Below are positions 12,191 to 35,046 of a stretch of 41,264 bases of DNA, piece after piece. Under the pieces are notes generated by a model, which saw nothing but the letters and a program-made list of their open reading frames with translations, did no database searches and was not told the DNA's origin. Made by a program: the position numbers and the translations under genes. This DNA is from a virus: the IMG/VR virus record IMGVR_UViG_3300047388_000130, positions 1-41,264 of that record, one strand, 5' to 3'. Within the stretch, counting starts at the first letter, position 1. Each line of letters starts with the position of its first letter.

Positions 12191-13282
12191 CTAACGTGGT
12201 GAAAACACAACTACTTGGCGATTTTCGCTCTTTCGTCGCTTCGGGCCGGTGGCAGTTCCAATGGCATGTGGCGAGTCACCCAAGAGCCTTCCTGCAGCCA
12301 AAATATCGCCCTCGGCAACGATGTTATAGCGATCAAAGATTGAGCGGGTTTTGTGGCCACTGATGGCCATTGCGATGCGTTCGGGGATTCCGCGACGAAT
12401 CATGTTCCGTACCGCGCTGCGTCGCAAATCATGTACCAAGAGCTCAGGAACCCCGACCGAGCTAACCAGATAACCCCAAGTCACCCGAAAATCCCGCACA
12501 TGCTTGGTTCCTCTCGTAAAAATAAAATCTTTCGGCACTTTCCCTGCAAGGCAGGGCGCGAGTAGCCGGCGAACTTCTGGGGTCAGCGGAGCGATCCGGC
12601 CTTCATCATTCTTCGTGGTGCCAGGATCTAATCGGATGAAATCGCTTTCGACTTGATACACGCGGAGGTTCAGAATTTCGCGCGATCGGAGCCCGAAACG
12701 GTAAGCAATCGCGAGGAAGGCTTTAAGCCAGGCTTCAGAAGCGCCTGCGAGCAGTTCATTATATTTTGCGTCTTCGACGAATCCGCGGCGCGGCGGTGCT
12801 TCCTTGAGGCGTTGCGGAAACTCCGGCATACGCTGGGCTTTGGGCGGCGTACATCGTAAAGCCAGCCTGAACATTCGTTTGAGCGCAGTAAGGTCGCGGT
12901 TAATGGTGGCATTTGAAAGGCCTGAGGCAGCCAGCTTCGAAATATAGCGCTCGATTTGTTCGGTGGTGAGACTATCGGCGCGCGCCGCCTCGAAATATGG
13001 CTTGAGCCGGTTCCATGACGTCTCGATCGGCTTCAAGACTTGTTTGCTGCGCTTGTAGTCTTCAATCAGAAGCTCGTTCAGCTCTTTGATGGTGCGACCG
13101 CCGCGGGGAGCGAAGAAACGGCCTTCAAGTATTTCAGCCTTGCGGATCTGATAGCGTTTTATGGCCAGCGACTTCTTGCCCACTTTTTCGCGGTGCCGCT
13201 GGCCATTCTCGAAATACTGAATGTGCCAAACGTCAGAGCCTGCCGGGTCTTCGTAGACCCCGCGAATCTTCTTCTCAGCCAT
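12191..13282 (-). CDS. int: Tyrosine-type site-specific integrase
   Basis: 363 residues, ATG at 13282. The N-terminal part (about 1-60) is an arm-binding-like domain; residues 65-150 form the SAM-like core-binding domain; 165-335 is the catalytic domain. Catalytic set: Arg199 in FGLRSREIL, Lys224, His284-x-x-Arg287 in VHDLRRSA, His310 in ISGHKTRS and nucleophile Tyr319 in FDRYN. All are present, so the enzyme should be active. It would insert the phage into the host chromosome. It is read leftward, last in a three-gene operon with overlapping starts and stops. Confidence 0.93.
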   Translation of the reverse strand: MAEKKIRGVYEDPAGSDVWHIQYFENGQRHREKVGKKSLAIKRYQIRKAEILEGRFFAPRGGRTIKELNELLIEDYKRSKQVLKPIETSWNRLKPYFEAARADSLTTEQIERYISKLAASGLSNATINRDLTALKRMFRLALRCTPPKAQRMPEFPQRLKEAPPRRGFVEDAKYNELLAGASEAWLKAFLAIAYRFGLRSREILNLRVYQVESDFIRLDPGTTKNDEGRIAPLTPEVRRLLAPCLAGKVPKDFIFTRGTKHVRDFRVTWGYLVSSVGVPELLVHDLRRSAVRNMIRRGIPERIAMAISGHKTRSIFDRYNIVAEGDILAAGRLLGDSPHAIGTATGPKRRKSENRQVVVFSPR

Positions 13283-25299: not shown

Positions 25300-25718
25300 A
25301 AACAGTTCAACCCCGAAATGATCGTGTTTTGATTCGCAGAATTGATGAACCTGAGCAAAGAGTGGGCCTGATTTACGTTCCCCAAGTCGCGCAAAAGAAA
25401 GCCATCAAAGGGGAGATTATCGCGGTTGGACCGGGTAGGTGGATTCCTGGTGAATGGTGGAAGTTTTATGCACCCACAGTGGATGACCCTGATGGTTGTG
25501 GGCATTGGGAGTGGATCGACGGCTATTTCCAAGTGCCTGTCGTGAAGCCCGGCCAGTTCTGTTATTTCGGTTCGCGCTGGGATGATTCGAGCGGACAAAT
25601 TGGCTCGGAATATCATCTCGTACAAGAGGCCGATATTTTCTGCATTGTTCCGAAAGATGCCAAGCCTGCTACGGCAACTGTCCAAGAATTGCCAGACAAA
25701 ATAAGCATAGATGCCTGA
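25296..25718 (+). CDS. GroES-like cochaperonin
   Basis: 140 residues from a GTG. It follows GroES order: VQPRNDRVLIRRID (strand 1), EQRVGLIYVPQVAQKK (mobile loop, with LIYV where GroES has IVL), IKGEIIAVGPGRW, then VVKPGQFCYFGS and a closing EADIFCIVPKD. An extra aromatic and acidic insert of about 30 residues (EWWKFYAPTVDDPDGCGHWE and onward) sits at the place of the GroES roof region. It probably replaces host GroES on GroEL to fold phage proteins such as the coat. It overlaps the portal gene start by eight bases. Confidence 0.82.
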   Translation: MKTVQPRNDRVLIRRIDEPEQRVGLIYVPQVAQKKAIKGEIIAVGPGRWIPGEWWKFYAPTVDDPDGCGHWEWIDGYFQVPVVKPGQFCYFGSRWDDSSGQIGSEYHLVQEADIFCIVPKDAKPATATVQELPDKISIDA

Positions 25719-27828
25719 CGAAAAGCGCGGCAAAAAAGCGTTTCTTGAGTTAGCTATGGAACGCTTCAAGTTGGCGGCTGAAGCTGAATCGGATATTCGA
25801 GAGCAGGCTTTAGCGGATCTGAAATTCTATAGCGGTGAGCAGTGGGACGATGCCATTCAAAGCATCCGTAAGAAGCGCGGACGCCCTTGTTTGGTGATGA
25901 ATCACCTGCCGCAGTTCAAACGGCAGATTTGCAATGAGCAGCGGCAGAACAAGCCGGCCATTGTTGTAAATCCCATTGGGGATAATTCAGACGTAGAGAC
26001 GGCCGAAATTCAGCAGGGAATTGTCCGGCACATTGAAGTCAACAGCAACGCTGATGTGGCCCGCGACATCTCATTCGAGCAGATGGTCATTACCGGATTC
26101 GGCTACCGGCGCATTGTAACCGAGTATGCGGATGATGAAGGCGATGAACAGGAAATCCGCATCAAGCCGATCAAGGATCAGTTCACGGTCTATTTTGATC
26201 CGCGCTGCATGGAGCCGGATTACTCAGATGCGGAATTTGCTTTTATCATTGAGGACGTTCCGACCAAGATGTTCCATGCGCAGTATCCCAGGGCGGAAGA
26301 TGCTTCTCTTGAAGAGTATCAAGCAGTTGGAAACTCACAGCCTGAATGGATTAACGAAAAACACGTCCGAATCGCTGAATACTTCTACGTAGAAAAGCCC
26401 GAAAGTGCGAAACGGGGCAGGCGCAAAGTCAAGTGGGCCAAGATTACGGCCGCCGAAGTCCTTGAAGAACAGGATTGGCTGGGCAAATATATCCCTCTCA
26501 TTCCGGTATTGGGCGAGGAAATGATTATCGATGGCAAGCGCGTGCTCAAAGGATTTGTCCGCGATGCCAAACACCCTCAACGCCAATACAATTTCATGCA
26601 TTCGGGAGCCGCTGAAGCGATCGCGATCCTTCCGAAAGCGCCCTATATCCTCGCAGTTGGGCAGGCAGAGAATCTAGAGCAGAAATGGGAACGGGCGAAC
26701 GTAGAGAACTTCCCTTACCTCGAATACAACCCGGTCGATGTGAATGGGACGGCAATCGGACCTCCGCAGCGAGCAAATTCCGAAGCCAACATTCAGGGTT
26801 ATAACCAGATGATTATGCTGGCCGACAATGATCTAAAGGCCAGCATCGGGTTGTATGACGCATCCCTGGGACAGAAAGGCCCTGAACAATCCGGCAGAGC
26901 GATTGCGCAGCGTAAGCAGCAGGGCGATCTTGCAACTCTGAATTTCTCCGATAATCAGGCGCGCTCGATTCTCCACGAAGGTCGCGTGATTCTTGACCTG
27001 ATGCGGGTGGTTTACGACACGCCGCGCGTGATGCGGATTATCAATCCTGACGGCTCGGTAAAGCAGGTAGTAACCCAGAATGGCCCCTCACAGGAAGCAG
27101 CAGCGAAGAAACTTCTCACTGATCAGATCAAGAAAATTTATGACATTGGCGTGGGCAGCTACGATGTTGCTGTTCAGGTTGGTCCAAGCTATCAAAGCAA
27201 GCGTCAAGAAGCTGTCGCTACGCAATTGGAATTAGTAAAGGCCGATCCGCAGCTTTTGCCCATCATCGGAGATTTGCTCGTTGGCGAAATGGATATTCCG
27301 GGTGCCAAGGAAATCGCCAAGCGCCTGAAAAAGATGCTGCCGCCGCAATTGCAGGACATGGGCGACGAGGAATCGCAAATTCAGCAATTACAGACACAGC
27401 ATCAGCAGATGGTGCAGGAACTGACGCTCGTCAGCCAGCATCTACAGCAAGCCCAGCAGATCATCGAGACGAAGCAAGTCGAGCAGCAAGGCAAAGTGGA
27501 AATTGCGAAGGCCCAAGAATTATCGAAACAAACCATCGTCAAGATGCAGGAAGTTACCAAGATTGCGGTCGCGCAGATTAACGCCAGCAAAGATGCGCAC
27601 CAATCCTATGCGGATGCGGAGCTGAAGCAATACGAATTACTCCATAATGCCGCGCATGATGTGGCTTTACAGGCTACAGACCAAGCCCATCAGCAAGACA
27701 TGGCTGCGAAACAACAAGCCGCGGCCGCACAAGGCCAACAAGCGGACCAGTCCCACGATATGGACATGGCCGCAGTGAATCAGGCCCACGACGAGGAAAT
27801 GGCCACCGCGAATCAAGGACAAGAATGA
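25711..27828 (+). CDS. Portal protein, P22-like
   Basis: 705 residues, close to the 725 of P22 gp1. It begins with the typical helical start (FKLAAEAESDIREQALADLK, FYSGEQWDD) and shows a mostly alpha/beta core. The last 160 residues are a Gln/His-rich coiled coil (ESQIQQLQTQHQQMVQEL and further), corresponding to the long C-terminal barrel of P22-like portals. The ring of twelve copies would anchor packaging motor, ejection proteins and tail. The start is chosen at ATG 25711. Confidence 0.88.
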   Translation: MPDEKRGKKAFLELAMERFKLAAEAESDIREQALADLKFYSGEQWDDAIQSIRKKRGRPCLVMNHLPQFKRQICNEQRQNKPAIVVNPIGDNSDVETAEIQQGIVRHIEVNSNADVARDISFEQMVITGFGYRRIVTEYADDEGDEQEIRIKPIKDQFTVYFDPRCMEPDYSDAEFAFIIEDVPTKMFHAQYPRAEDASLEEYQAVGNSQPEWINEKHVRIAEYFYVEKPESAKRGRRKVKWAKITAAEVLEEQDWLGKYIPLIPVLGEEMIIDGKRVLKGFVRDAKHPQRQYNFMHSGAAEAIAILPKAPYILAVGQAENLEQKWERANVENFPYLEYNPVDVNGTAIGPPQRANSEANIQGYNQMIMLADNDLKASIGLYDASLGQKGPEQSGRAIAQRKQQGDLATLNFSDNQARSILHEGRVILDLMRVVYDTPRVMRIINPDGSVKQVVTQNGPSQEAAAKKLLTDQIKKIYDIGVGSYDVAVQVGPSYQSKRQEAVATQLELVKADPQLLPIIGDLLVGEMDIPGAKEIAKRLKKMLPPQLQDMGDEESQIQQLQTQHQQMVQELTLVSQHLQQAQQIIETKQVEQQGKVEIAKAQELSKQTIVKMQEVTKIAVAQINASKDAHQSYADAELKQYELLHNAAHDVALQATDQAHQQDMAAKQQAAAAQGQQADQSHDMDMAAVNQAHDEEMATANQGQE

Positions 27829-28795: not shown

Positions 28796-30022
28796 TTGGC
28801 TAATACACTCCTAACAGACACTAAGATCACGCGGGAAGCGCTGCGGATCTTGGTAAACGAATTAACCTTCACCAGACAAATCAGCCGTAAGTACGAGGAT
28901 ATGTACGGGCAGTCCGGTGCGAAGATCGGCACCGTTCTGAACGTTCGCAAACCGCCTCGGTATCTCGGGCGCGTCGGCCAAGGGCTTCAAGTCGAAGATG
29001 CGACGGAAACTATCGTTCCGCTGGTGCTTACCACACAGCGCGGCGTGGATATTTCCTTCACATCGCAGGATTTGACGCTCTCAATCGACGATTTCAGTTC
29101 TCGTTTCCTGAAACCGGCACTCGCTAACGTCTCCAACGGTATCGATTTCGATGGACTGAACCAATATTTGAACGTCTACAACGAAATCGGCACTCCTGGA
29201 AGCGTACCGAACACGGCTCTGACCTATTTGCAGGTCGGATCACGGCTCGATGATGAAGCGGCTCCTCGCGATGGCGAACGCTGTGCGGTGCTTTCCCCGA
29301 CCATGCAGGCAACCATCGTCAACGCACTCACCAACCTTTTCAATGCTCCTGGAAAGCTCAGCGAGCAGTATGAAAAAGGCTTGATGGGCACGATGACGTT
29401 GGGTTTTGACGATTGGTATCTCGACCAAAACGTTCGCACGCAAGTGGTTGGTCCGCTTGGCGGCGCGCCCGTTATCAACGGCGCAGCTCAGACCGGCAAT
29501 TCCATTATCACCAACGGCTGGACGGCTGCCGCGGCGAAACGTCTCTCTCGTGGAGATATCATTACCCTGCCCGGTTCGTTCGCTGTCAATCCCCAAAACA
29601 AGCAGTCCACCGGCGTTCTCCGTCAGTTTGTCGTGACGGCGGATGTGTTCTCGGATGGTGCGGGTAACGCAACCATTCCGATTTCAGGTCCTGGTGGATT
29701 GGGCGTAGTTGTTTCCGGGCCTTTCCAGACGGTTACTGCTTCCCCGACTTCAGGGCAGGCGATCGTCATTCAGGGCGCGGCAAACACTTCGTCTCCCCGC
29801 GGCTTGGGCTTCCACAAGGACGCATTCGCATTCGCGACTGCAGACTTGCTGCTCCCTGGCGGCGTGGATTTCGCCAAGCGTGCGTCAAGCAAGGAATTGG
29901 GCGTCAGCATTCGCCTGGTTCGTGCTTATGACATCAACACTGACCGCTTCCCATGCAGATCAGACGTTCTGTATGGCTTCGCCACCTTGTATCCCGAGTT
30001 GGCCGTTCGGATTGCGAGCTAA
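28796..30022 (+). CDS. Major coat protein, P22 gp5-like
   Basis: 408 residues. The N terminus MANTLLTDTKITREALRIL is typical of P22-like coat proteins; an extended N arm and HK97-like fold with an inserted domain are expected. The start is a TTG: an in-frame stop (TAG) lies immediately upstream and the next in-frame Met is residue 36, so no better start exists. The ribosome site is weak, which is odd for the most abundant virion protein. Confidence 0.88.
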   Translation: MANTLLTDTKITREALRILVNELTFTRQISRKYEDMYGQSGAKIGTVLNVRKPPRYLGRVGQGLQVEDATETIVPLVLTTQRGVDISFTSQDLTLSIDDFSSRFLKPALANVSNGIDFDGLNQYLNVYNEIGTPGSVPNTALTYLQVGSRLDDEAAPRDGERCAVLSPTMQATIVNALTNLFNAPGKLSEQYEKGLMGTMTLGFDDWYLDQNVRTQVVGPLGGAPVINGAAQTGNSIITNGWTAAAAKRLSRGDIITLPGSFAVNPQNKQSTGVLRQFVVTADVFSDGAGNATIPISGPGGLGVVVSGPFQTVTASPTSGQAIVIQGAANTSSPRGLGFHKDAFAFATADLLLPGGVDFAKRASSKELGVSIRLVRAYDINTDRFPCRSDVLYGFATLYPELAVRIAS

Positions 30023-30741: not shown

Positions 30742-31143
30742 ATGGCAACACGAGCACCAATGCTGGTTCAAGATGCACAGCCCGTAAAAGACGTTTACAT
30801 ACCAGACGCGGGAATGCCGGCGAAAGGTCCGCACGTCTACAAAGGTAGGGAAGCGGGCTACATTCATGCTGCTTATGTCCACCAGGAATATCCGAAGGGG
30901 CTTTATCGCGCGCGCACAGCGGAAGAGATCCAATACGAGCGCGACAACACACCGCTCGATGTTTGGCGGGACAAGGAAACAGATCTTTTGCAATTGACCG
31001 GGCACAACCAGAAAAAAGACATCAAGAGTTATGAAGCATGGGTGACTCGTCATCTTGAAATCGTCGTGAGCGATGAAAAAGAAGAGAAAAAAGCCATCGC
31101 CCAAGGCTATAAATCCCTCGCGGAGCTGTCGAAAGACAAGTGA
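30742..31143 (+). CDS. Head-completion-region hypothetical protein
   Basis: 133 residues; ATG after AAAGGAAA. Proline/tyrosine-rich N-terminal half (YIPDAGMPAKGPHVYKG, YIHAAYVHQEYPKGLYRA) and a charged helical C-terminal half. The family is unknown. Position between coat and gp4-like gene suggests a virion or assembly role. Stop overlaps the following GTG. Confidence 0.55.
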   Translation: MATRAPMLVQDAQPVKDVYIPDAGMPAKGPHVYKGREAGYIHAAYVHQEYPKGLYRARTAEEIQYERDNTPLDVWRDKETDLLQLTGHNQKKDIKSYEAWVTRHLEIVVSDEKEEKKAIAQGYKSLAELSKDK

Positions 31144-31883
31144 ACGCGCAAGACCTGCTTTCAAGCTCTTTTCGGCTCATCGGCGTGCTGGCATCAGGTG
31201 AAACTATGCCAGCCGATGAAGCCGCTGATGGCCTGGTGGTTCTGAATCAGATGCTCGATAGCTGGAACACCGAGCGGCTGATGATTTTCACCCAGCTCAT
31301 CAGCGAATTTCCGCTTGTACCGGGCCAGCAGGTCTATACGCTTGGCGCGGGCGGTAATTTCAACATTCCTCGACCATCCCGCATTGAGCGCATGAGCATT
31401 GTGAATCTGGCCAATCCTGCTCAACCGCTCGAGCTTCCAATGGAAATGCTGAGCGATGAAGATTGGCAAACCGTGCCAGTCAAAGTAATCACCAGCACTT
31501 TGCCGCTCTATGTCTATGACGATGGAGCATTTCCGCTGCGCAATCTCAGTTTTTACCCTGTCCCGCAATCCACCGTTAACACCCGTATTTATAGCTGGTC
31601 GAGCCTGCTTCAATTTCCAGACCTCACGACCGACGTCACTTTCCCGCCTGGTTACCTCAAGGCCATTCGCTATAATTTGGCCGTTGATTTGATCGCGGAA
31701 TATCCCGGCGAATATTCGCAACTTACCGTCAGTTCGGTGACAACCCAAGCCAGAGAAACCAAAGCCAAGCTGAAGCGATTGAACATCCCATCTGTGCAGA
31801 GTGGGATTGATGGCGCGCTCGTTGACCCTGACGGCGGTTACTACGATTGGCGAAGCGATATGCCGGTTGGCGGCACGCGCTAG
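31140..31883 (+). CDS. Tail accessory factor, P22 gp4-like
   Basis: 247 residues from a GTG. The N-terminal helical pair (AADGLVVLNQMLDSWNTERL) and the following beta-part (VPGQQVYTLGAGGNFNIPRP SRIERMS region) match P22 gp4-type adaptors that plug the portal after packaging. C-terminal region has FPPGYLKAIRYNLAVDLIAEY, typical of the family. Confidence 0.85.
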   Translation: MNAQDLLSSSFRLIGVLASGETMPADEAADGLVVLNQMLDSWNTERLMIFTQLISEFPLVPGQQVYTLGAGGNFNIPRPSRIERMSIVNLANPAQPLELPMEMLSDEDWQTVPVKVITSTLPLYVYDDGAFPLRNLSFYPVPQSTVNTRIYSWSSLLQFPDLTTDVTFPPGYLKAIRYNLAVDLIAEYPGEYSQLTVSSVTTQARETKAKLKRLNIPSVQSGIDGALVDPDGGYYDWRSDMPVGGTR

Positions 31884-31885
31884 AG

Positions 31886-33439
31886 ATGGGCAAGTTTCCT
31901 CTGATTGGCCCGAGTTATTCGAGCCAGTCAGTAAATGCCGATTGTCAGCAAACGATGAATTTGTACCCGGAAGTCATCGAGTCCGGGGCAGGGAATTCAC
32001 AGATTGTTCTGTATCCCAGTCCGGGAACGAAACAATTTGTAGATTTGGCTCCTCCTGGTGGGACTGCTGGATTGCAGAATGTTCGCAGAGCATTATCCGC
32101 AGCCGATTTGAATAGTTCTTTCGCGACTCCGATTCAATTGGTTCCTGCGCAGGGCCCGAATCTGGTTATCGTTCCGCTGTCGGCAGTCGTGCAATATACG
32201 TTCGTGACGACACCATACACAGGGCCTGGGGGACTGAATCCGATCATTGGTTTAGGTTCGAATCAGGCGGATATTGCAACTAGTTTCGTTCTGCCTATTG
32301 ATACTCAAGTGTTCAAGGCTAGTGTCAACAAAGTCGAATCACTTTTGGCGCTTCCCTCCTGGCAGAATCTTTCGCCAGCCAAGTTCGTAAATCAGCCGCT
32401 ATGCTGGACCGACAATTTCAGTCCCACTAATGGCTCTGGTGACGGAACAGCGGTGCTGAATGTGCAGTTCTATGTTCTAAACGTGGTCACTGGGAAGATT
32501 GTGAACGGCGCGCCAAAGATGGTGCATGGCTCATTCCAAAATCTGACAACTACGCAGATCAAAAACGCCAACGCAACGCCGATCCAGTTGGTCGCTGCTC
32601 CGGGCGCGAACCAAGTTCTCATGCCGTTGACGGCAATTGTTTGGCACCATTTCAACACTGCGGGACTAAATCAAGTTCCATCGCCGCGGATTGGTTACGG
32701 ATCGGTCGCCGCGCCGATCATCACGGCGAACATGTTCCAGTTCTTCGATGGAAACGGATTCCTCTTTTCAGCCGATTCGATGGAACAAGAGGGCGGCAGA
32801 TTCGTCTCGAACATCGATCCGGCGCTGGTCGTGAATCAGCCGCTCAGTTGGACAAATGTTTCGGATATCCCGGCCGCGACAGGGGACACCACCGCAACGG
32901 TCTATCTGCAATATCTGGTGATCGACACCTCGGCAGGGACACTGATCGCCGGTACCGGAGATTTATTCAGCACTCATACCGAAATCACTTCCGCGCAGAT
33001 TAAAGCAGCGAATGTCACCGGAGTCTCTGTAGCTCCGGCTCCTGGAGCTAATTTGCTGAACGTTCCGGTCTATTCGGTGGCTCAGGCGAATTTTGGAACC
33101 ACTCCGTATTCTGGCGGCAACGATCCTAATGTGCGAATCAGTCCAGCAGACACGGTCGCGAATTCCGTGAAGTTGTCGCTGACCACGTTCTTTACTGCCG
33201 GTGGTCCATTTACATTCTGGGAATCGATGTCTAACCAGATGATTCTTGAACCTGCGGTCTTCTATACGCCGCCAAACAATAATCCAGGAAGCAACATTCT
33301 CCCTGCCGTGGTCATCAATGAGCCAGTTCTATGGGCGAATTTTGGCAATGCAGGAGCCTTCCCGGGAGATGCTTCGGCCAGCCTGAACAGCCAATATTTC
33401 ATCGTTAACACCGTCGATGGGAGCTTGCGGGCAAATTGA
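31886..33439 (+). CDS. Hub N-terminal fragment fused to three module repeats
   Basis: 517 residues from ATG 31886. Residues 1-55 match the start of P22 gp10-like hub proteins (CQQTMNLYPEVIESGAG and VLYPSPGTKQF). From about residue 68 the protein changes to three copies of a module of roughly 150 residues, each opening with a TPIQLV.APGAN-type strand pair and closing with a QPL.W-type part and a (V/I)VNT/VIDTS-type strand. Such modules occur in other phage structural proteins. The reading frame ends with TGA, overlapping a TTG that restarts the rest of the hub. The rest of the hub is in the next gene. Confidence 0.75.
   Translation: MGKFPLIGPSYSSQSVNADCQQTMNLYPEVIESGAGNSQIVLYPSPGTKQFVDLAPPGGTAGLQNVRRALSAADLNSSFATPIQLVPAQGPNLVIVPLSAVVQYTFVTTPYTGPGGLNPIIGLGSNQADIATSFVLPIDTQVFKASVNKVESLLALPSWQNLSPAKFVNQPLCWTDNFSPTNGSGDGTAVLNVQFYVLNVVTGKIVNGAPKMVHGSFQNLTTTQIKNANATPIQLVAAPGANQVLMPLTAIVWHHFNTAGLNQVPSPRIGYGSVAAPIITANMFQFFDGNGFLFSADSMEQEGGRFVSNIDPALVVNQPLSWTNVSDIPAATGDTTATVYLQYLVIDTSAGTLIAGTGDLFSTHTEITSAQIKAANVTGVSVAPAPGANLLNVPVYSVAQANFGTTPYSGGNDPNVRISPADTVANSVKLSLTTFFTAGGPFTFWESMSNQMILEPAVFYTPPNNNPGSNILPAVVINEPVLWANFGNAGAFPGDASASLNSQYFIVNTVDGSLRAN
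32087..33439 (+). repeat. Three tandem ~150-codon modules
   Basis: Units begin near 32087, 32540 and 32981. Matching positions include SSFATPIQLVPAQGPN, NANATPIQLVAAPGAN and KAANVTGVSVAPAPGAN. The copies are clearly related in protein but diverged in DNA, so the triplication is not recent. Confidence 0.75.
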
Positions 33440-35046
33440 GCGTCCGTGGGGAGCTGACAATCAATGGCAGGACATTCGCTGTAGCGAAGACGAATGTGAT
33501 GGAAGTATTTTCGAATCAATCCAGTTCAGTTCTAGGAACAGTATTAGACGACAGTCAACTTGTCTCAATGGCCGCAAGCTCGAAACAGCTTCTGATTGCG
33601 AGTGCAGGCACGCTTTATCTTCTGGATTTGGGTAGCGGCGCATTCTCGACGATCCCAGCGGCAAATTTCAGCGGGGCAGTTTCCCTAGTAGGTTACAGTG
33701 ACGGATTCTTCATCGTTCTGATTACAGATTCTAGGCAGATTTACGCTTCTGCCGTGGAAGATGGTTCAACCTGGCCGGGACTCAGTACCACAATCGTTTC
33801 GCTTTTCCCCGACAATATCGTTTCGATGATTATCGATCATCGGGAAATTTGGCTTTTCAGCAAAAGGTACGCTCTGGTTTATGAGAATACGGGCGCTTTC
33901 CCGTTTCCGTTCGAACCGAATCAGAGCGCGTTTATTGAGCAGGGCTGTGTAGCAAAGTTTGGCCCTGCGAAGCTCGACAACACAATTCTCTGGCCGGGAA
34001 TCGACGAACGCGGGCAGGGAATGATTTGGAGGGCTTCCGGCTACACTCCGACGCGCATCTCAAATCATGCAGTGGAGTTTGCTTTTCAGGATTATAGCCG
34101 AACCAGCCGAATCTCTGACGCTATTTCCTATGCGTTCCAGGATCAAGGCCACAACTTTTATCATCTCTATTTTCCCAGCGCGAACAAAAGCTGGCGCTAC
34201 GATACCGCTACAAATATGTGGCACGAAGTAGGATTCTGGAACGCCGGCGCTGGATTCTTCGAAGCCCATCATAGCCAAGTTCACACTTTCAACTTCGGGA
34301 AACACCTCGTAGGCGATTGGCAAAGTGAAAAGATTTACGATATGGAGATTCCGAAGTGGAACGGAAGTACTTGGGACTTCGCTACCGATAATGGAAGCCT
34401 GATTCGTCGGGTCCGCAGAGCTGCGCATATCTCGGACGATCAGAAATTCTCAACGCATCATCAAGTGCAAATCTTTCTTGAGACTGGGTTAGGGTCCATT
34501 CCCGCACTCCCTGGAACGGGCATACCGACAAGCATTATTCTAGCCGATCCAAATGGCGCTCTCTGGTCAATGGGAATCACGGATAGCGGATCGCTGACGT
34601 CGACGCCGGGGGCAACTGGCACGCCACAGATATTGTTTTTCAATGATGCGGATACGAACACGACTTCTTGGCTATTGGGCGTCGATATAAATGGAGCTTT
34701 GGTACTCACCCCAGCGGCATACAACGCGAATTACCTAACCAGTCTCGCGATGATCGGTGAAAGCGGCACGCTCCTATTCACTTTTTATGTGGACATTAAC
34801 GGAGCGGCGAATACAGGCAGCAGCGGCACGATTACTCGGGCACCGCAACTTTCTATTAGCTGGAGCAACGATTCAGGTCACAGTTTTAGCAATGAGTACA
34901 TTCTGGATTGCGGGCAGGCCGGAGAATTCAAAGCACGCGTGATGAAACGCAGACTCGGGCGCGCGCGGGATCGCGTCTATCAAATTTCCATGAGCGATCC
35001 AATTCCCTGGAGAATCGTAGCCGGTTATGCGGAGATAGGCGCGTAA
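33436..35046 (+). CDS. Hub C-terminal part, P22 gp10-like, with second insert
   Basis: 536 residues from a TTG that overlaps the preceding stop. It reads as the gp10-like hub from just after residue 55: VRGELTINGRTFAVA, AASSKQLLIASAGTLYLL, FPDNIVSMIIDHREIWLF, FIEQGCVAKFGPAKLDN, YAFQDQGHNFYHLYFP, AHHSQVHTFNFGKHLVG and RVRRAAHISDDQ, and a closing RRLGRARDRVYQISMSDPIP WRIV region. A roughly 110-residue module (about 355-468) splits the LETGLG...SWSNDSGHSFSNEY part. Removing both inserts leaves about 480 residues, as in intact gp10-type hubs. Confidence 0.82.
   Translation: MSVRGELTINGRTFAVAKTNVMEVFSNQSSSVLGTVLDDSQLVSMAASSKQLLIASAGTLYLLDLGSGAFSTIPAANFSGAVSLVGYSDGFFIVLITDSRQIYASAVEDGSTWPGLSTTIVSLFPDNIVSMIIDHREIWLFSKRYALVYENTGAFPFPFEPNQSAFIEQGCVAKFGPAKLDNTILWPGIDERGQGMIWRASGYTPTRISNHAVEFAFQDYSRTSRISDAISYAFQDQGHNFYHLYFPSANKSWRYDTATNMWHEVGFWNAGAGFFEAHHSQVHTFNFGKHLVGDWQSEKIYDMEIPKWNGSTWDFATDNGSLIRRVRRAAHISDDQKFSTHHQVQIFLETGLGSIPALPGTGIPTSIILADPNGALWSMGITDSGSLTSTPGATGTPQILFFNDADTNTTSWLLGVDINGALVLTPAAYNANYLTSLAMIGESGTLLFTFYVDINGAANTGSSGTITRAPQLSISWSNDSGHSFSNEYILDCGQAGEFKARVMKRRLGRARDRVYQISMSDPIPWRIVAGYAEIGA

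Follow-up and report, generated by a model that had tools for sequence, protein, structure and literature searches.

We identified a viral tail hub that is encoded in two pieces. The window, by which we mean the whole stretch of DNA that was analysed (41,264 nucleotides, positions 1-41,264 of the IMG/VR record IMGVR_UViG_3300047388_000130, from an uncultured virus), contains a hub gene of the P22 gp10 type, and profile comparisons show that this gene is cut at one site, with the residues that flank the cut in the two pieces being neighbours in intact hubs. Alignments likewise show that the N-terminal piece runs into an exchangeable cassette ending in a stop codon, and that the C-terminal piece restarts there (Table 1). 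We consider it quite probable that the two reading frames, ORF1 and ORF2, yield a two-chain hub by coupled re-initiation, and that the N-terminal piece anchors the exchangeable, outward-facing cassette.

Table 1. Features of the split hub gene and its neighbours in the window
Feature	Position	Strand	Description and evidence
P22-type portal protein	25711..27828	+	PF16510 E 4.7e-161
Major capsid protein, P22 coat type	28796..30022	+	PF11651 E 8e-26; phrog_283 E 5e-70
Upstream gene in tail-adaptor (P22 gp4-like) position	31140..31883	+	phrog_12985 (uncharacterised family) E 6.8e-48; phrog_637 head-tail adaptor Ad3 E 9.5e-5
ORF1	31886..33439	+	517 aa; ATG 31886, TGA 33437-33439; N-terminal hub piece plus cassette
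N-terminal hub piece, residues 1-55	31886..32050	+	corresponds to part of the platform domain; PHROG_578 and intact-hub profile
Cassette, ~460 residues	32051..33436	+	three tandem copies of a beta domain of roughly 130-150 aa; self-alignment and external profile
Module copy 1	32090..32482	+	external profile E 1.1e-14
Module copy 2	32540..32929	+	external profile E 2.4e-14
Module copy 3	32978..33436	+	external profile E 7.3e-9 for the first half, up to ~33196; remainder placed by aligning it with copies 1 and 2
ORF1/ORF2 overlap, TTGA	33436..33439	+	ORF2 TTG start on ORF1 TGA stop
ORF2	33436..35046	+	536 aa; remaining hub, i.e. seven-bladed propeller and most of the platform
In-frame ORF2 insert, three ~33-residue repeats	34525..34833	+	alignment; minimal hubs such as L007 are without it

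Together, the start of ORF1 and ORF2 account for a complete hub. PHROG_578 (head closure Hc3, gp10 type) matches residues 3-57 of ORF1 at profile positions 5-58 (E 4e-5) and residues 2-378 of ORF2 at positions 59-419 (E 1.3e-77). With a profile built from 45 intact hubs, which included zero split sequences to remove circularity, ORF1 corresponds to positions 1-55 (E 1.8e-20) and ORF2 to positions 56-471 (E 6e-168). The two pieces abut at 55/56, with no residue missing and none duplicated. The sole further segment listed for this profile over the whole window is noise (E 0.42), and no second hub was found. Intact relatives also have the first 55 residues of ORF1, followed directly by SVRG, the start of ORF2; the intact hub L092 is continuous over the break site (..FIDLAPGAHTSVRGTF..) and reads ..TKTFIDLAPGAHTSVRGTF.. 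where the window has ..TKQFVDLAPPGGT(cassette)stop/SVRGEL... An earlier note on this DNA had described a gp10-like hub split by a three-copy module of about 460 residues, with N- and C-parts that meet exactly and a hub restart at a TTG overlapping the stop; the two hub profiles, the alignment of both proteins to intact hubs (which together cover hub positions 1-471) and an external module profile bear out this description, including the assignment of the first 55 residues to the hub. ORF2 itself carries an in-frame insert with repeats of the W..GV...G.L type. Inserts at the matching model position are found in 18 single-ORF hubs, and the insert of L092 at this place is far longer than that of the window.

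By sequence and genomic context the window hub is of the P22 gp10 type, with its fold predicted from an intact relative. The hub gene lies beside the adaptor-position gene in a P22-type structural module with portal and coat, and in phage DSL-LC05 the gene in the position matching the upstream neighbour is annotated as tail adaptor. The window phage is probably temperate, given a gene for a tyrosine recombinase/integrase (12194-13282, minus strand; PF00589 E 2.5e-16). DNA-level searches with the window returned no related phage record, and a scan of genome contigs gave no relative in a named species. Several fibre-like or unidentified genes of the window (at 634, 1815, 4013, ~5943, 6380 and 36359) encode N-termini resembling Sec signal peptides, for example MKRILLFIALLCALSGAASAQ and MMKKALTFLLFILFAAACGFAQ. 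Such N-termini are unusual for phage virion proteins, and one is also present in L007:3313-4704.

We modeled the intact relative L026 with AlphaFold2 from an alignment of 51 sequences (pLDDT 92.1, pTM 0.90). A Foldseek comparison aligns this model with P22 gp10 (8eap_D; TM 0.86/0.87, r.m.s.d. is 2.9) and with Sf6 gp8 (7sg7; TM 0.84), and also matches it to the Pam1 and Pan3 hubs. The break maps to the loop between strands 48-54 and 60-66 of the model. In T7 gp12, the 45-residue N-terminus contributes three strands to the platform barrel and the C-terminus the others (PMC6702177), and in SU10 gp17 the chain passes from the N-terminal platform part into the propeller at blade 1, with blades 1-3 set off from the channel axis (PMC9509320). 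Taken together with the loop position of the break, homology to T7 and SU10 suggests that the N-terminal platform strands probably lie on one side of the cut and the propeller on the other, and that the cassette probably leaves the hub on its outer side.

Scans of IMG/VR located the C-part at 75 loci and the N-part at 58. The identical cut is present in eight other contigs (L002, L003, L004, L005, L006, L018, L019 and L027), and in two more, L008 and L091, an N-part plus cassette is encoded and the contig ends before ORF2. Stop and start codons overlap in 9/9 complete split hubs, as ATGA in seven, as TTGA in the window and as TGATG in L018. Cut and insert always occur together: both are found in 9/9 split hubs, and 0/97 single-ORF hubs, a set that includes some near-duplicates, have more than 8 residues at the break site. 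In a FastTree phylogeny of the C-part core the nine split hubs form one clade (local support 0.991), with intact L092 and L096 and then L026 as neighbours. Since all split hubs fall into this clade, the break arose once as far as seen.

Sequence comparison within the clade indicates that both hub parts are under purifying selection. The window N-part is 63-89% identical to those of the other split hubs, and the hub-conserved residues G8, Y11, S15, N25, Y27, P28, E29, L42, P46 and G47 are kept in 9/9 split N-parts. Where synonymous changes are unsaturated (pairs among L002-L004 and among L006, L019 and L027), the N-part has a dN/dS of 0.02-0.23 and the C-part one of 0.03-0.08. Among the nine split hubs, N-part distances correlate with C-part distances (rho 0.69, Mantel p 0.0016), which argues that the N- and C-parts were inherited together while cassettes were exchanged. 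Every full record searched gave one N and one C match and no intact hub; among them are five related contigs of 42-44 kb, which are near-full-length and possibly incomplete.

It could be argued that ORF2 alone is the working hub and that the first 55 residues of ORF1 are a docking tag on the hub or adaptor, making ORF1 an accessory decoration protein. Docking by a short N-terminal segment is normal for accessory phage proteins, the N-part is indeed short, and the whole propeller is retained in ORF2. The N-part, however, keeps hub-specific conserved residues at hub-level constraint and has not drifted, deletion of the same strands was not found among the single-ORF hubs scanned, nearly all of which have an N-part match, and the barrel meeting the adaptor would open if the three platform strands were missing. 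We regard this explanation as improbable and prefer a hub of two chains, to which both ORF1 and ORF2 contribute.

Hubs encoded in a single ORF carry in-frame insertions of at least 25 residues near model position 125 (11 hubs) and near position 395 (18 hubs). In-frame inserts at the split site had been suspected in L113, L116, L117, L122, L124-L126 and L130, and were placed near position 125 by reading and profile alignment. These eight hubs belong to a different hub group and have in-frame inserts of 150-400 residues in the early propeller, which represent another cassette site. In L043:1088-3060 and L055:5659-7591, the last ~95 hub residues lie in a different frame, behind an insert near position 395. 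The first frames have similar ..FPMAT..LQSGLxxxG stop ends, one hub restarts in the -1 frame and the other in the +1 frame, and the overlaps contain no ATG, GTG or TTG ahead of the hub homology. This frame change may be either a second break type or the result of sequencing frameshifts.

Ribosome-binding sites of ORF2 in the nine split contigs have a median of -3.0 kcal/mol, compared with -4.4 kcal/mol for other genes and -2.5 kcal/mol for random sites. The window ORF2 site (-6.5 kcal/mol) goes against this weak trend, and the overall difference is small and not uniform. Ordinary phage genes often overlap by four bases. The idea that the overlap evolved for coupled translation gains from its recurrence in different forms (ATGA/TTGA and TGATG) with mostly weak ORF2 ribosome-binding sites; coupled re-initiation of ORF2 is the part that we infer. 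Programmed -1 frameshifting before the ORF1 stop, which would produce one hub with an internal insert in some copies at least, appears very improbable by comparison of the nine junctions. ORF2 is in the -1 frame in every case, and Ig-like domains are known to be joined to phage structural proteins by programmed frameshifting (PMC9022992). The -1 frame, however, follows automatically from overlapping start and stop codons, and a slippery heptamer (X XXY YYZ) is present in 0/9 overlaps. The room from the ORF2-frame stop to the ORF1 stop is only 7 nt in L002, L003 and L004, and the start codon at the junction is kept in 9/9 split hubs.

The triplicated module of the window is only one among several unrelated cassettes at the break site, as judged by sequence. 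Cassettes are 245-490 residues long and fall into at least four classes: the module of the window, also present in L008; one domain in L002 and L004 that occurs in two copies in L003, with L005 weakly linked; DUF11 with a further domain behind it in L006 and L019 (PF01345 E 2.6e-8 and 9e-8); and nested domains in L018 and L091. Beyond the hub start, ORF1 and the other inserts have no PHROG or Pfam match, except for DUF11 in L006 and L019. The external module profile, made from 59 copies from elsewhere with the window left out, finds three domains in ORF1. A DNA tandem-repeat scan detected no repeat in the module region, because the copies share only about 25-35% protein identity. Elsewhere, the module family is found at 65 loci in 72 ORFs, and in 72/72 it is present as a single copy ending 15 or fewer residues from the stop. 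Two homologues, in L139 and L141, are encoded directly behind a capsid-like gene (a call made by eye from the sequence). In L149, L164 and L193, two or three neighbouring genes each encode a member of the C-terminal module family, a pattern that resembles amplification by gene duplication rather than by tandem repetition of the domain.

The predicted structure of a single module (copy 1; pLDDT 80, pTM 0.79) has the GP4 cement protein as its best PDB match (8h89_J; E 3.3e-4, probability 1.00, TM only 0.45) and also matches the Pam1 capsid protein (7eel_H; E 3e-3). The model thus weakly resembles a phage cement protein, which is a lead rather than a classification. The cement protein of Ralstonia phage GP4 (gp1) is Ig-like and a trimer of separate chains (PMC9698820), whereas the window has three tandem copies on a tail protein. 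Surface binding or bracing of the head-tail joint is a likely role for the window cassette.

An insert of mobile or intervening nature (a group I or II intron, an intein or a homing endonuclease), spliced out or merely interrupting the gene, has precedent in the homing endonucleases that split nrdA of Aeh1 and the T4 topoisomerase into working two-chain enzymes (PMC2988022). Yet the window and six relatives have no Rfam match, and an endonuclease or intein domain is found in no insert. The inserts are mutually unrelated, yet all encode structural domains rich in beta strands, continue the frame of the N-part and are under selection (dN/dS about 0.1), and we consider this origin highly improbable. 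An artefact of assembly or sequencing, or a pseudogene in decay, might be suspected from metagenomic contigs and the weak TTG start of the window, and is barely credible: the same break with its overlap occurs in nine nucleotide-diverged contigs from different samples, which in practice excludes a missed frameshift at the window's junction (33430-33445), and both parts are under purifying selection with no replacement hub found.

Comparison with solved hubs reveals what sets the two-chain hub apart. It shares with P22 gp10 and Sf6 gp8 (PHROG_578; PDB 8eap, 8u10 and 7sg7) the full-length profile, the fold as predicted for its relative (TM 0.84-0.86) and the position of the gene after coat and adaptor-position genes. 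Hubs of the P22 gp10 type are hexamers that contact adaptor, tailspikes and needle. Solved members are single-chain, whereas the hubs of the window and its eight relatives are not one continuous polypeptide but two overlapping frames with a large cassette on the first; we therefore file the window hub as a two-chain variant, not as an ordinary gp10. Like the nozzle proteins SU10 gp17 and T7 gp12, it would have a platform with the N-terminus and a seven-bladed propeller (PMC9509320, PMC6702177). Nozzle proteins bear extra domains on propeller loops, with four Ig-like nozzle domains in SU10 (PMC9509320, PMC6702177), but these are in frame at other loops of an unbroken chain. In Aeh1 NrdA-a/NrdA-b and the T4 topoisomerase 39/60, one ancestral protein became two reassembling chains (PMC2988022), as we propose for the window hub. 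The Aeh1 and T4 proteins are enzymes that homing endonuclease genes have divided, whereas the window encodes a virion protein with no endonuclease, and phages of its clade exchange an insert that is attached to the N-terminal piece. Ig-like domains are, according to Fraser et al. 2006 as cited in PMC9022992, promiscuous beta-sandwiches added to conserved virion proteins; there they are joined in frame or by frameshift at a terminus or loop, whereas the window domain is joined to a hub fragment, with the hub remainder as a separate gene. By analogy, the window hub appears most like a split Aeh1 NrdA (PMC2988022) combined with promiscuous Ig-like decoration (PMC9022992).

In the mechanism that we propose, ribosomes that have completed ORF1 would initiate anew at the overlapping ORF2 start, and the chains would thus be made side by side and in linked amounts. 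The 55-residue N-terminal piece would give beta strands to a platform barrel built for the most part from the ORF2 C-terminus, paralleling the strand donation by the T7 gp12 N-terminus, there in one chain, and six ORF1/ORF2 pairs would make up the hub ring beneath the adaptor. The cassette would exit via the loop between platform and first propeller blade and be held outside the tail. The break would allow a C-terminal domain to be swapped, stop codon included, without any need for the chain to return to the propeller. The regular C-terminal position of the module in other ORFs suggests an origin by capture of the 3' end of a structural gene, which recombination would have imported including its stop, with the hub restarting behind it. 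Modules on the outside of the tail and a two-protein hub, offered as alternatives in the earlier note, are not alternatives in our best reading, to which both would belong.

It is possible, if doubtful, that the break is functional in itself: the hub would be a socket for swappable anchored domains, with its own N-terminal strands as an anchor that, being fixed by strand pairing only, might come loose or detach once the hub opens to eject the DNA, and the three cement-like modules of the window would make up a single-chain pseudo-trimer that surrounds the tail or sits beneath the capsid vertex. That three tandem module copies would suit such a pseudo-trimer is speculation on our part.

Our search of the open-access literature found no report of a split gp10/gp12-type hub, which is not proof of absence. 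The case concerns one small clade of P22-like bacterial viruses, known from their genes in metagenomic contigs from soil, and it is from these genes that we infer assembly and display. Few podophage proteins are as conserved as the gp10/gp12 hub, which must seal and open the DNA channel under pressure. A clade in which the cut has been kept and the attached domains replaced would mean that N-terminal platform strands can come in trans, and that the break site is a place for carrying foreign domains. Here a virion protein is found in pieces without a homing endonuclease origin. Taken together, our analysis suggests that the tail hub can be a modular mount in which the continuity of one protein is no longer needed, and the split clade would provide a natural test of how short-tailed phages gain host-facing domains.
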